Shown piece by piece: positions 58,799-61,927 of a stretch of 64,000 bases of DNA (the stretch's first letter is position 1; each line of letters begins with the position of its first letter). Source of the stretch: Kineothrix sp. IPX-CK. Lineage in GTDB: Bacteria > Bacillota > Clostridia > Lachnospirales > Lachnospiraceae. Made by a program: the position numbers and the translations under genes. The notes under the pieces were generated by a model. The model was not told where the DNA came from. It worked only from the letters and a program-made list of their open reading frames with translations, and did no database searches. The stretch covers positions 2,418,001 to 2,482,000 of the forward strand of contig NZ_CP146256.1 of the NCBI RefSeq assembly GCF_039134705.1, in the 5' to 3' direction.

Positions 58799-58838
58799 AA
58801 AAAAACCGCCTGCATGCGTCCCATCGGACACTGCAGAC
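58799..58838 (-). terminator. Terminator of the peptide/small-gene transcript
   Basis: Minus strand GTCTGCA ... TGCAGGC outer stem with an inner GTCC-GATG-GGAC hairpin and a small internal loop, followed by GG and seven T (58805-58799). It closes the unit that starts at the peptide promoter (59212-59184) and insulates trpS. Confidence 0.75.
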
Positions 58839-58844
58839 AGTGAT

Positions 58845-59080
58845 TCAAAAAAGCTTGTCCATTTCACCGGAACCGGACTTTTCGTCGATATCGATCCACT
58901 CGATAACGCATATATATAATTCCCCTTTTGCCCTCTCAATGATGTCTGCATCTCTCAAAGGAACATATATCGACGAAAATAGAAAACGTTGGAAAGCTCT
59001 CTTTCGGTCCCATTCCAGTAAAATCCTGCAAGCTCTTATACTTTGACAGCAAAGCAAACCGCTTTTTTAAATGCTCCCAT
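58845..59080 (-). pseudogene. Possible small frameshifted gene downstream of the peptide gene
   Basis: The clearest coding signal is the last 45 residues of the frame ending at 58845 (YVPLRDADIIERAKGELYIC, then VIEWIDIDEKSGSGEMDKLF). Its only start is a TTG at 59057 without a ribosome binding site. Stitching three frames gives a more gene-like reading from ATG 59080 (MGAFKKAVCFAVK, then YKSLQDFTGMGPKESFPTFS, then the end above), implying two shifts near 59040 and 58980. It is followed by a terminator. It may be a decayed small gene, or only the end is real. Alternatively a 14-residue peptide could be read at 59080-59036. Confidence 0.35.
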
Positions 59081-59097
59081 ACTGTCAAAAATATAAA

Positions 59098-59160
59098 TTA
59101 ATTACCCCCACCCAATAACCAATTCCAAAAGTTGCCGAACACACTCAATACTGTATACAT
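59098..59160 (-). CDS. 20-residue peptide, candidate signal peptide or leaderless bacteriocin
   Basis: ATG at 59160 lies nine bases after AAAGGAGG and encodes MYTVLSVFGNFWNWLLGGGN, then TAA. Two nearer ATGs give only MMRCIQY-type heptamers with poor spacing. The peptide has two Trp and two Phe, no charged residue, no Cys or Pro, and a Gly-rich tail. It has its own extended -10 promoter and lies just behind an AgrC-like kinase gene and a LytTR regulator gene on the same strand. It is not AgrD-like (no Cys or Ser thiolactone core with an acidic tail) and no AgrB is in the window. Candidate ligand or product of the two-component system. Confidence 0.6.
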   Translation of the reverse strand: MYTVLSVFGNFWNWLLGGGN

Positions 59161-59183
59161 CGCATCATACCTCCTTTTTCAAC

Positions 59184-59212
59184 AAAATATCATATGGGTA
59201 TGACATTTTCAA
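59184..59212 (-). promoter_or_regulatory. Promoter of the 20-residue peptide gene
   Basis: Minus strand TTGAAA (59212-59207), 17-bp spacer, TATTTT (59189-59184) with an extended TG one base before it. Just upstream are GTT-containing nonamers (ACCGTTAAA, ATGGTTGAA) that weakly resemble LytTR half-sites but not with the usual 21-22 bp spacing. Confidence 0.6.
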
Positions 59213-59291
59213 CCATTTCTCGTTTAACGGTTACATAACTACATTATCGGTACATTTATTAAACACTTTATCAATCTTTTTATTGGGTACT

Positions 59292-60611
59292 CTATTTATC
59301 GTCATATGGTATCGTCACTTTTACCACGAACTCACCATTTCCAACGTTTATTCTAAAATCTCCGCCATTCTTTTCTACGGTTTCTTTCACGTTTCGCATT
59401 CCGATACCATGATTTTCCTTATCCGCTTTCGTAGTGGCCATTAACCCATTTACTAACGTTTCTTTTTTATCTGCCTCCGGCGCACTGTTTATTACCTCGA
59501 ACTTCATATAATTATTGTTATTGGCAACAACTATTTTCAAATAGCGCTCATTGCATTCCGTTTTATTCAACGCCTCAACCGCATTCTGAGTAAGATTTGA
59601 CACGATGGTGCAAAGCTCTACCCTATTTATCCTTATATTATCGGGACATTTACCGTTCACGTCGACCTTAACCTCTTTATCAAGCAAGGAAATATAATAA
59701 TTAAGTACCGCGTCAATAACATCATTTCCAACCGAATAAGTTATGTTCTTAATTTCAAGAAGCTGGCCTTCCATTCCCGACACATAATCCTTCACCTTGG
59801 AAACATCTCCGCGATGAGCCAGTTCGTTCAGGCATATAAGATGACTCTGTATATCGTGTCGGAACCTCCTTGTCTCCTCGTTTTTAGCCAGCATAGCCTT
59901 ATACAGGTTTCTTTGTGTTTCTAAAAGCAAAGCATCCGTTTCCAGATACTTCTTTATAGTTTTATTTTCATTATCAATATAGATCATAATTAAAATAAGG
60001 CATGCAACACTTACAAAAGAAATAATCGATATAACCTTTGAAAACAAAATAATCTTTTCATTGGGAGTATATCTGGAGATAGTTTGAAACCCGGCAATAG
60101 TCAAAAATATAGCCATCCCCATTACAAAAACGGAAACATATATTATAAACTTATAGATTTTTTTCCATTTTTCATTATCAGGCAATTTAACTTTTTTCTT
60201 TATTACAGCGGCTATACTTATTAATACAATTACTATACTATTATTAATTAAATATATGATTTTTTCTTCGGCAAAAGGAATATTTTGTCCTGCTGAAAAA
60301 GGCGAAATGATTCCTCCGACTATTTCTCCCATACATATTATTAGAAATCCGGCTCTGAAAATGTTCAGTGCCTTCTCTCCTTTATCACAATCCAAAACAA
60401 ATATATATGCTATGATAGAGAGAGTACTCCACCATAATAGCAATGTATTCTCATCCACAACCCCAAGCAATGTGAACACCGCAAAGCCTGTTACCGCCGC
60501 CGCTCCTATCCAAAGACGTTTTATCTTCAAAGAATAAACTCCACAGAACCATATTCCATACTTAAGCAGCTCCGTAATAAAAATAATCAACAGCAGACAA
60601 AATATCTTCAT
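59292..60611 (-). CDS. AgrC-like GHKL sensor histidine kinase
   Basis: 439 residues from ATG 60611; GTG 60626 overlaps the regulator stop and is the coupled alternative. About six to seven transmembrane helices fill residues 1-215, then a dimer/His region (RRFRHDIQSHLICLNELAHR) and a GHKL ATPase (VSNLTQNAVEALNKTE, NHGIGMRNVKETVEKNGGDF). This is the HPK10 class that senses peptides such as AgrD or ComC products. It shares an operon with the LytTR regulator and is followed by the 20-residue peptide gene. Confidence 0.9.
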   Translation of the reverse strand: MKIFCLLLIIFITELLKYGIWFCGVYSLKIKRLWIGAAAVTGFAVFTLLGVVDENTLLLWWSTLSIIAYIFVLDCDKGEKALNIFRAGFLIICMGEIVGGIISPFSAGQNIPFAEEKIIYLINNSIVIVLISIAAVIKKKVKLPDNEKWKKIYKFIIYVSVFVMGMAIFLTIAGFQTISRYTPNEKIILFSKVISIISFVSVACLILIMIYIDNENKTIKKYLETDALLLETQRNLYKAMLAKNEETRRFRHDIQSHLICLNELAHRGDVSKVKDYVSGMEGQLLEIKNITYSVGNDVIDAVLNYYISLLDKEVKVDVNGKCPDNIRINRVELCTIVSNLTQNAVEALNKTECNERYLKIVVANNNNYMKFEVINSAPEADKKETLVNGLMATTKADKENHGIGMRNVKETVEKNGGDFRINVGNGEFVVKVTIPYDDK

Positions 60612-60622
60612 ATCATCTATCC

Positions 60623-61321
60623 TCACGTATATTCCGCTTGATACAGCAAATATGCTTTATAAAAGCTGCTCTTTCTCCTTCGCGAAAGTATAAATTCATT
60701 TCTGTCTATCCATATTTTTTCATCTTTATATTTATCTATCCAAAGGATATTTACGATATATTTTTTATCGATCCTAAAAAACAAGCGCATATCCAGTTCA
60801 TTTTCTGCTCCCTTTAGGGATACTTCTTTTCTGAATATTTCGTTTCCCGCAAAATACTCCGTATAGCTGTTATACGCCCGTATGTATTTTATATTCCTTT
60901 GAAGAATCTGGTACTTGTTCCGCTCCTTATACACCTCGACACTTTTCATCCCAAGGGATAAATTAATCACCCTCGTCAAAGCCTCCATGATCCCCTCCTT
61001 ATGGAAAGGCTTCCGCAAATACCAAACCGCGTTTATCTTAAAGGCTTCCTCAAAATGCTCGGTTTCTCCTGTCGCCATAATGATACGGCAGCCCGGATTG
61101 AGCTTGTTTATCTGCTTCCCGGTTTCATAGCCATTCAAAACCGGCATGATGACATCCAGGAAAACCGCATCCAGCTCTTGCACTTTTTCAAGCAGTCCGC
61201 TTCCCGAGAGAAACGTATATATTTCATAGTCCTGCCCGATTTCCCGCAAGCATTCTCCGATCATTCGCTCCAGTCTCTCCGTTATCAATTTTTCATCGTC
61301 GCAAATACCTATTTTTATCAT
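60623..61321 (-). CDS. LytTR-family response regulator (AgrA-like)
   Basis: 232 residues from ATG 61321 (ATG 61327 and 61348 are alternatives; none has a strong ribosome binding site). Receiver domain IKIGICDDEKLITERLERMI with phospho-acceptor Asp in LDAVFLDVIMPVLNGYE and Lys in YLRKPFHKEG. The C-terminal LytTR DNA-binding domain is at about 130-232 (IKYIRAYNSYTEYFAGNEIF, LFFRIDKKYIVNI). Typical partner of GHKL kinases in peptide quorum sensing. Confidence 0.92.
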   Translation of the reverse strand: MIKIGICDDEKLITERLERMIGECLREIGQDYEIYTFLSGSGLLEKVQELDAVFLDVIMPVLNGYETGKQINKLNPGCRIIMATGETEHFEEAFKINAVWYLRKPFHKEGIMEALTRVINLSLGMKSVEVYKERNKYQILQRNIKYIRAYNSYTEYFAGNEIFRKEVSLKGAENELDMRLFFRIDKKYIVNILWIDKYKDEKIWIDRNEFILSRRRKSSFYKAYLLYQAEYT

Positions 61322-61359
61322 TAGCATCCCGCGCCATCCTATTTCCATTTACTGGTAAT

Positions 61360-61591: not shown

Positions 61592-61927
61592 TTATTCTTC
61601 ACATCCACATGTATTCCCCGGTGAAGGAAACGAATTAAAACCCCTGTCTCTGTCTCTGCGTACATCATCGACATAAGGTTCATTCATCATTTGTCTGCCG
61701 TCATATCTTTGTTCAGGTCCCCGGCTGCGTCCGCCGGTTCCTTGATTGTTATCCGGGGTACTGCATCCGCATGTATTGTTATTTCGACAGCCTGAGTTGT
61801 CGCCCCAGCCTGAATTGTTGCCGCAGCCTAAATCATTTCCGCAGCCCGAATTGTTCCCCCAGCCTATATCGTTATTGCCGCAGCATAAAAGTAAAATTAA
61901 CAAAATAAGACAATTCATATTCTTCAA
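61592..61927 (-). CDS. Small Cys/Gly/Asn-rich repeat protein
   Basis: 111 residues. A short hydrophobic start MNCLILLILLLCCGNN is followed by hexapeptide repeats of the form GWGNNS, GCGNDL, GCGNNS, GWGDNS encoded by an 18-bp tandem repeat. After that come CGCSTPDNNQ, a polar Arg/Gly/Asp-rich region and a final NTCGCEE. Nine cysteines. An AGGAG box precedes the ATG, and a strong terminator follows. I do not know the family; its cysteine- and glycine-rich make-up resembles spore-coat or secreted metal-binding microproteins. The hydrophobic start ending in CC may be an export or lipobox-like signal. Confidence 0.7.
   Translation of the reverse strand: MKNMNCLILLILLLCCGNNDIGWGNNSGCGNDLGCGNNSGWGDNSGCRNNNTCGCSTPDNNQGTGGRSRGPEQRYDGRQMMNEPYVDDVRRDRDRGFNSFPSPGNTCGCEE
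61788..61880. repeat. 18-bp tandem repeat (five units) inside the small Cys/Gly/Asn-rich gene
   Basis: Units CAGCCTGAGTTGTCGCCC, CAGCCTGAATTGTTGCCG, CAGCCTAAATCATTTCCG and CAGCCCGAATTGTTCCCC run from 61788 to 61859, then a 21-bp variant to 61880. Repeat number could vary between strains without breaking the frame. Confidence 0.85.

Follow-up and report, generated by a model that had tools for sequence, protein, structure and literature searches.

In streptococci, the very short XIP and SHP peptides arise by cleavage of precursors, and their targets are cytoplasmic Rgg/ComR regulators. Aureocin A53-type bacteriocins and phenol-soluble modulins are mostly larger, and they are not known to signal to a neighbouring GHKL kinase. 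To our knowledge, many GHKL kinases of the family Lachnospiraceae are themselves without a known signal. For LytTR regulators, the part of PMC6193735 drawn on here describes direct repeats that are mostly separated by 12 bp (in a minority by 11 or 13 bp) and are strongly biased toward a position 10 bp upstream of the -35 element. For the LytTR Regulatory Systems HdrRM/BrsRM, the same part gives direct repeats about 10 bp upstream of -35 and proposes positive autoregulation.

We analyzed a 64,000-nucleotide stretch (the window) of the genome of Kineothrix sp. IPX-CK, in which the genes of a LytTR regulator and a GHKL kinase are followed by an ORF of 20 codons. We consider it fairly probable that this unit is a peptide-signalling module, namely a regulator-kinase operon with a separately promoted leaderless micropeptide that acts as the signal of the kinase.

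The locus in Kineothrix sp. IPX-CK

The genome (G000) is a single contig of 4,723,253 bases. On the minus strand of the window, the order is LytTR regulator, GHKL kinase, 131 bp, the 20-codon ORF, about 257 bp, a terminator and a W/Y-type tRNA synthetase gene, which we take to be trpS. A gene closely resembling this synthetase gene is also found at a more distant peptide locus, that of a Herbinix MAG (L054), from 2.6 kb downstream of the kinase and with other genes between. The regulator (60623..61321, minus strand) is an entry of the ORF list with 232 aa from the ATG at 61321, an alternative in-frame ATG at 61348 also being possible, and its receiver and LytTR domains match Pfam Response_reg (59.5 bits) and LytTR (40.5 bits) above the cut-offs. 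The AgrC-like sensor kinase (59292..60626, minus strand; 444 aa, GTG start) has a GHKL-type ATPase domain, matched above the cut-off by HATPase_c_5 with 71.6 bits. The two genes overlap by 4 bases. The AlphaFold2 prediction on 31 peptide-linked kinases (mean pLDDT 81.4, pTM 0.56) has six N-terminal helices followed by a long helix. The conserved His H257 as well as N and G residues are invariant in 31 kinases, and the best PDB fold match of the predicted kinase model is the AgrC cytoplasmic domain. Upstream of the regulator lies a 111-aa ORF with Gly/Asn/Cys-rich repeats (61592-61927, minus strand), and a similar ORF is found upstream in one relative (G007).

The 20-codon gene (59098..59160, minus strand), present in the ORF list, encodes the candidate leaderless aromatic micropeptide MYTVLSVFGNFWNWLLGGGN and is presumably translated, as suggested by its strong Shine-Dalgarno sequence AAAGGAGG (59170..59177, minus strand) 9 bases before the ATG, by synonymous conservation and by analogous ORFs behind related kinases, both described below. 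The gene has two Trp codons; the peptide has no Cys, and its GGG stands at the C-terminal end. The open frame surrounding the ORF spans only 26 aa, so that a leader cannot fit. Upstream there is a promoter-like site (59184..59212, minus strand) made of TTGAAA (59207-59212), a 17-bp spacer and TATTTT (59184-59189) with TG before the -10; since scanning gives 15 such sites versus 9.7 in shuffled sequence, this match is weak on its own. It is preceded by two 9-bp LytTR-type direct repeats that the initial annotation had not mentioned, ACCGATAAT (59243..59251, minus strand) and, 20 bp after it, ACCGTTAAA (59223..59231, minus strand), the second ending exactly 10 bp before the -35. These predicted sites, with their 10-bp gap, thus stand upstream of the promoter of the putative target. 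Their layout is that described in the consulted part of PMC6193735, and this agreement favours, though it does not prove, a role of the neighbouring regulator as activator of the peptide gene. The tandem pattern has one perfect match in the genome, the one at the peptide promoter. When up to two mismatches are allowed, there are 17 matches, the perfect one included, versus 30 for a reversed control, and therefore a second target promoter is not seen in the genome.

About 257 bases beyond the peptide stop, a strong intrinsic terminator (58799..58841, minus strand) combines a fold of -26.8 kcal/mol (shuffle mean -11.9, z -5.64) with a T run; a simple terminator scan did not detect it. The initial annotation, made from the letters and a list of their ORFs, had described one operon of a LytTR regulator and an AgrC-like GHKL kinase, a 20-codon ORF with a Shine-Dalgarno sequence at nine bases, a product without Cys, an extended -10 promoter of its own and a terminator about 260 bases past the stop. 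These elements are all recovered here, the promoter with the reservation given above. Between the peptide stop and the terminator there is also a remnant-like frame (58845-59097, minus strand), with ..LQDFTGMG.. and ..SSIYVPLRDADIIERAKGELYICVIE.. in two frames. In Kineothrix alysoides a 49-residue part of it is 69% identical and one ORF (L032, 5079-5456) unites both parts, so it may be a decaying gene formerly carried on the peptide transcript.

Conservation in close relatives

A search of 16 genomes of the genus gave kinase matches at E <= 1e-40 in four, one of them G000 itself. In G007, whose kinase is 69% identical, the locus encodes MFTTLSVFGNFWNWLLGGGN, which shares 18 of 20 residues with the window peptide. 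The residue changes fall at codons 2 and 4, and in codons 5-20 there are 4 nucleotide differences, all four synonymous (about 0.0009 under random placement). A substitution pattern typical of noncoding DNA had been named in the initial annotation as grounds for giving up the peptide, and what is found in these codons speaks for a coding frame instead. The more distant kinase of G009 (45% identical) is accompanied by MVSTYSAFDEIWHWILGRF, with the same ribosome site as in the window. The nearest orthologous kinase (84%) belongs to K. alysoides KNHs209 (G014, locus L032) of the same genus group as G000; here the regulator and kinase frames are open and the peptide frame is broken, and an SD-led small ORF was not found. 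In the K. alysoides kinase, Pro replaces the window's Leu in the conserved SNLxQNA stretch and the tail is longer. A broken peptide gene beside an altered kinase (L032, 3501-5200) resembles the joint decay of a signal and its receptor.

About 440 bases downstream of the peptide ORF begins a W/Y-family tRNA synthetase gene, which is also present there in K. alysoides and G007. With two Trp codons in the ORF and a terminator between the two genes, the ORF might be a leader peptide controlling the downstream tryptophanyl-tRNA synthetase-like gene by attenuation. However, the conserved part of the ORF is the C-terminal 16 codons of the peptide, a search against Rfam gave no match above the cut-off, T-box included, and analogous peptides elsewhere precede unrelated genes while staying tied to the kinase. 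We have rejected the attenuation leader, which we regard as highly improbable, on account of these unrelated downstream genes and the lack of a T-box match.

Peptide genes behind related kinases

Related kinases were collected from 61 relatives and from GTDB contigs (80 of 87 loci kept), and further from 397 genomes of the family (30 loci) and 398 genomes of the phylum (30 loci); to these were added 40 stretches chosen from the resulting lists. Within the family sample, 311 of 397 genomes have a kinase match at E <= 1e-20. This yielded 194 kinases differing in their C-terminal 120 residues, of which 188 had at least 300 bp downstream. Using a criterion derived from the first loci examined (ATG or GTG start, 12-32 aa, a Shine-Dalgarno sequence of at least 5 letters, at least 1 Trp and at least 3 aromatic residues, within 350 bp), we found an ORF on the coding strand downstream of 42/188 kinases and none downstream of the other 146. 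The controls gave 1/188 on the other strand, a mean of 4.0/188 in dinucleotide shuffles and 1/183 in a window 500 bp further on. Among kinases fetched after the criterion had been set, it was satisfied in 7/34 (picked stretches) and 1/26 (phylum sample), with no reverse-strand ORF in either set. Since the sole positive of the phylum sample (genome G300) comes from the same family as the window organism, the trait seems to be largely one of this family, although such an ORF is also present at a locus titled Ruminococcus flavefaciens (L052) and at two titled uncultured Clostridia (L063, L065).

The criterion undercounts, as eight further peptides with weak or variant ribosome sites are visible by eye; these were left out of the counts (L093, L051, L119, L045 and L139 from 12 inspected loci; L131, L044 and L200 from 18). 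Also uncounted are L039 and L057, which lack Trp, and L181, where the ORF lies beyond 350 bp. A motif search without the Shine-Dalgarno requirement was less clean (28/188 forward, 7/188 reverse, 9/183 far). In a FastTree phylogeny of 173 kinases the ORF label is clustered, with 26 changes versus 37.7 in shuffles (0 of 500 as low), and 40 of the 42 ORF loci fall into one group of 110 rows that also holds 70 without an ORF; many branches are long. A similar-looking SD-led peptide, MFSTFNVIDFLIGTLFGRK, is located upstream rather than downstream of the kinase in L141 (277 to ~335, plus strand), so the position of the peptide gene relative to the kinase may vary.

An ORF this short, whose sequence diverges strongly between loci, might be a chance reading frame. 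Such a reading is hard to reconcile with the difference between 42/188 forward ORFs and 1 on the reverse strand or a mean of 4.0 in shuffled sequence, and with the synonymous pattern and the core that is common to many of the peptides. Given the control counts and the synonymous substitutions, we have rejected it as having very little probability.

After removal of L007 and L074, which are probable chance ORFs outside the main kinase group, the 42 loci gave a list of 40 peptides. Their median length is 20 residues (12-32), their median charge 0 (-6 to +2), and Cys occurs in 6; upstream of the start, a median of 10.5 codons is open (maximum 38). Sequences differ strongly between loci (examples are MGSNNNQNARDIWSELWKWLFG, MLRSNNEDLWEWLKRLFGW and MLLSASSEIWEWIWGLLRN), and many of the peptides have in common a core near W-x-W-[L/I]-[F/L]-G. 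Aligning 33 selected peptides, by-eye ones among them, yields the consensus W-x-W-L-F-G, frequently preceded by one acidic and one aliphatic residue. NCBIfam models had no match among 10 scanned peptides. AgrB-like ORFs were sought with a profile grown from one locus and applied to the fetched flanks, where they were found in 0/42 peptide loci versus 8/146 other loci. The candidates AgrD and double-glycine peptide were rejected on these grounds, together with the few Cys residues and the 26-aa open frame in the window. Similarity of peptides and similarity of kinases are weakly related (Mantel test: sensor part, rho 0.09, p 0.025; core, rho 0.10, p 0.022), and the covariation test points to no special link between the peptide and the sensor part of the kinase.

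The promoter layout of the window recurs in the wider family. Direct repeats with periods of 20 and 21 are concentrated between kinase and peptide: near the kinase stop they have period 20 in 18/42 and 21 in 9/42 loci, versus 0/40 and 1/40 in the far window. ACC-type tandem boxes are found at 20/42 peptide loci (0/42 reverse, 0/40 far), and a tandem box followed by a -35 element at 20/42 (1/42 reverse), with a gap of exactly 10 in 14, of which ten also have a -10 element. Neither tested kind of repeat is present in 11/42 peptide loci. Among loci without a scored peptide, tandem boxes occur in 19/146 (2/146 reverse, 1/143 far); some of these box-bearing loci carry by-eye peptides and others, such as L036, none. 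In L036 (Anaerosacchariphilus polymeriproducens), tandem LytTR-type repeats after the kinase are followed directly by a protein gene, with no recognisable peptide. Judging by these repeats, the adjacent LytTR regulator probably controls the peptide genes.

To see what follows the peptide genes, 20 proteins of 14 loci, selected by eye, were scanned against Pfam. RiPP or bacteriocin machinery was found in 8/14 loci: LanM-type synthetases in L037 and, as an N-terminal part, in L134; radical SAM enzymes in L038, L108 and L128, with ABC transporters also in L038 and L108; and C39-peptidase ABC exporters in L046, L058 and L106, most scanned loci being without a C39 exporter. The other six loci gave subtilase-like (L039), ABC/FtsX (L061), VWA/TSP3 (L063) and DUF4474 (L132) matches or nothing (L115, L181). 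By eye, small ORFs with double-glycine-like leaders and no Pfam match follow in L046 and L058, and the first downstream proteins of L061, L096 and L135 look secreted.

These data bear on two further explanations. According to the first, the ORF product is a bacteriocin made without a leader, or else acts on membranes; the two-component system controls its production, and the kinase senses something else. Some leaderless bacteriocins are Trp-rich, and a Trp-rich product without a leader, encoded behind a LytTR-type promoter, might fit. However, leaderless bacteriocins are mostly larger and cationic, and the peptides described here have a median charge of 0; other RiPP or bacteriocin genes follow in eight loci, and an immunity gene was not identified beside the peptide among the partly scanned window neighbours. 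The initial annotation had offered this alternative alongside a peptide signal; with roughly neutral peptides and separate RiPP or bacteriocin genes in several loci, it has lost ground and seems to us improbable. The strongest rival is a cell-internal membrane regulator: the micropeptide would stay unsecreted at the inner membrane face and tune the neighbouring kinase from within, a feedback by a small regulator protein. Small-protein regulators of kinases exist, and a leaderless, hydrophobic and aromatic peptide that adjoins a membrane kinase and has a LytTR-type promoter would suit this role. Against it, several peptides have only 12-16 residues, which is short for a membrane span, and the strong sequence difference between loci is what one would expect if the peptide were a specific signal. 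In several loci, moreover, typical targets of cell-cell signals lie downstream, namely RiPP and exoprotein genes. We therefore regard internal regulation as possible, though rather unlikely.

A signalling model and its relation to known systems

The most likely interpretation is that of a leaderless micropeptide family linked to adjacent GHKL/LytTR systems and acting as their signal. The peptide would be made at a basal level, would exit the cell with neither leader nor maturation and would then accumulate until sensed by the multi-helix membrane domain of the kinase. The phosphorylated LytTR regulator would bind the two repeats, so that the peptide gene is transcribed more strongly and, in relatives, the RiPP or exoprotein genes behind it as well. 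While translation, export, direct sensing, phosphorylation and DNA binding are thus steps we infer, gene order, the conserved peptide frame, the recurring core, the LytTR-type promoter layout and the absence of AgrB-like ORFs from the flanks are properties of the DNA itself. Supporting the module are the 42/188 ORFs, the synonymous conservation, the shared core, the repeats, the count of 0/42 for AgrB-like ORFs, the RiPP neighbours and the clustering on the tree. Speaking against a signal are the weak covariation, the lack of a second target promoter, the broken K. alysoides copy, the 11/42 peptide loci with neither kind of repeat and the many kinases without a scored peptide. On balance, the peptide signalling unit of the initial annotation has been strengthened by the frame conservation, the LytTR-type promoter and the peptide family behind related kinases.

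It is tempting to go further and to propose an undescribed, widespread quorum-sensing class of Lachnospiraceae and some relatives, and here we see the chances as about even. In such a class, leaderless micropeptides of some 12-32 residues with a core near W-x-W-[L/I]-[F/L]-G, needing no maturation enzyme, would be sensed directly by AgrC-like membrane kinases and would regulate the gene that encodes them, together with RiPP antibiotics and exoproteins in many species. Searches of titles and abstract starts in the open-access PMC literature gave no description of such a system; most subscription papers and all bioRxiv preprints lie outside this body, and it may be in print there. If the proposal is true, neither a leader nor processing is indispensable for a peptide signal, and one has to ask how a peptide made without a leader gets out of the cell. 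With a candidate ligand recognisable in the DNA beside dozens of GHKL kinases, synthetic peptides can be used to test these kinases, and there is a way to approach the silent RiPP clusters of gut and rumen bacteria. Their short length makes micropeptide genes easily missed by gene finders.

The described systems each share some traits with the module proposed here. XIP and SHP of streptococci are likewise very short, Trp-containing and leaderless-looking, whereas here a membrane kinase is the neighbour. Leaderless bacteriocins, aureocin A53 among them, and phenol-soluble modulins also have no leader, are aromatic or amphipathic and possibly keep the start Met. HdrRM/BrsRM differ in that, as far as the consulted part of PMC6193735 goes, the LytTR regulator is paired with an inhibitory membrane protein and not with a histidine kinase and a micropeptide. 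In ComCDE/Blp, too, the peptide gene adjoins those of a kinase and a LytTR regulator, and C39 exporters and bacteriocin-like genes occur in some of our loci; however, a double-glycine leader is absent from the peptides, as seen from the median of 10.5 open upstream codons in the 40 peptides and the C-terminal position of GGG in the window peptide. Agr (AgrC/AgrA with AgrB/AgrD) is similar in its AgrC-like GHKL kinase, LytTR regulator and adjacent small peptide gene with a LytTR-type promoter. It differs in that an AgrB-like ORF is found in none of the 42 peptide loci and no leader or tail surrounds the core; since Cys is absent from the window peptide and present in only 6/40, most peptides also lack a thiolactone core. 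The early view that the peptide is unlike AgrD or ComC has thus proved sound. In summary, the module would work like Agr- or Com-type peptide sensing. The lack of AgrB and of an AgrD core sets it apart from Agr systems, and the lack of a leader from double-glycine systems.
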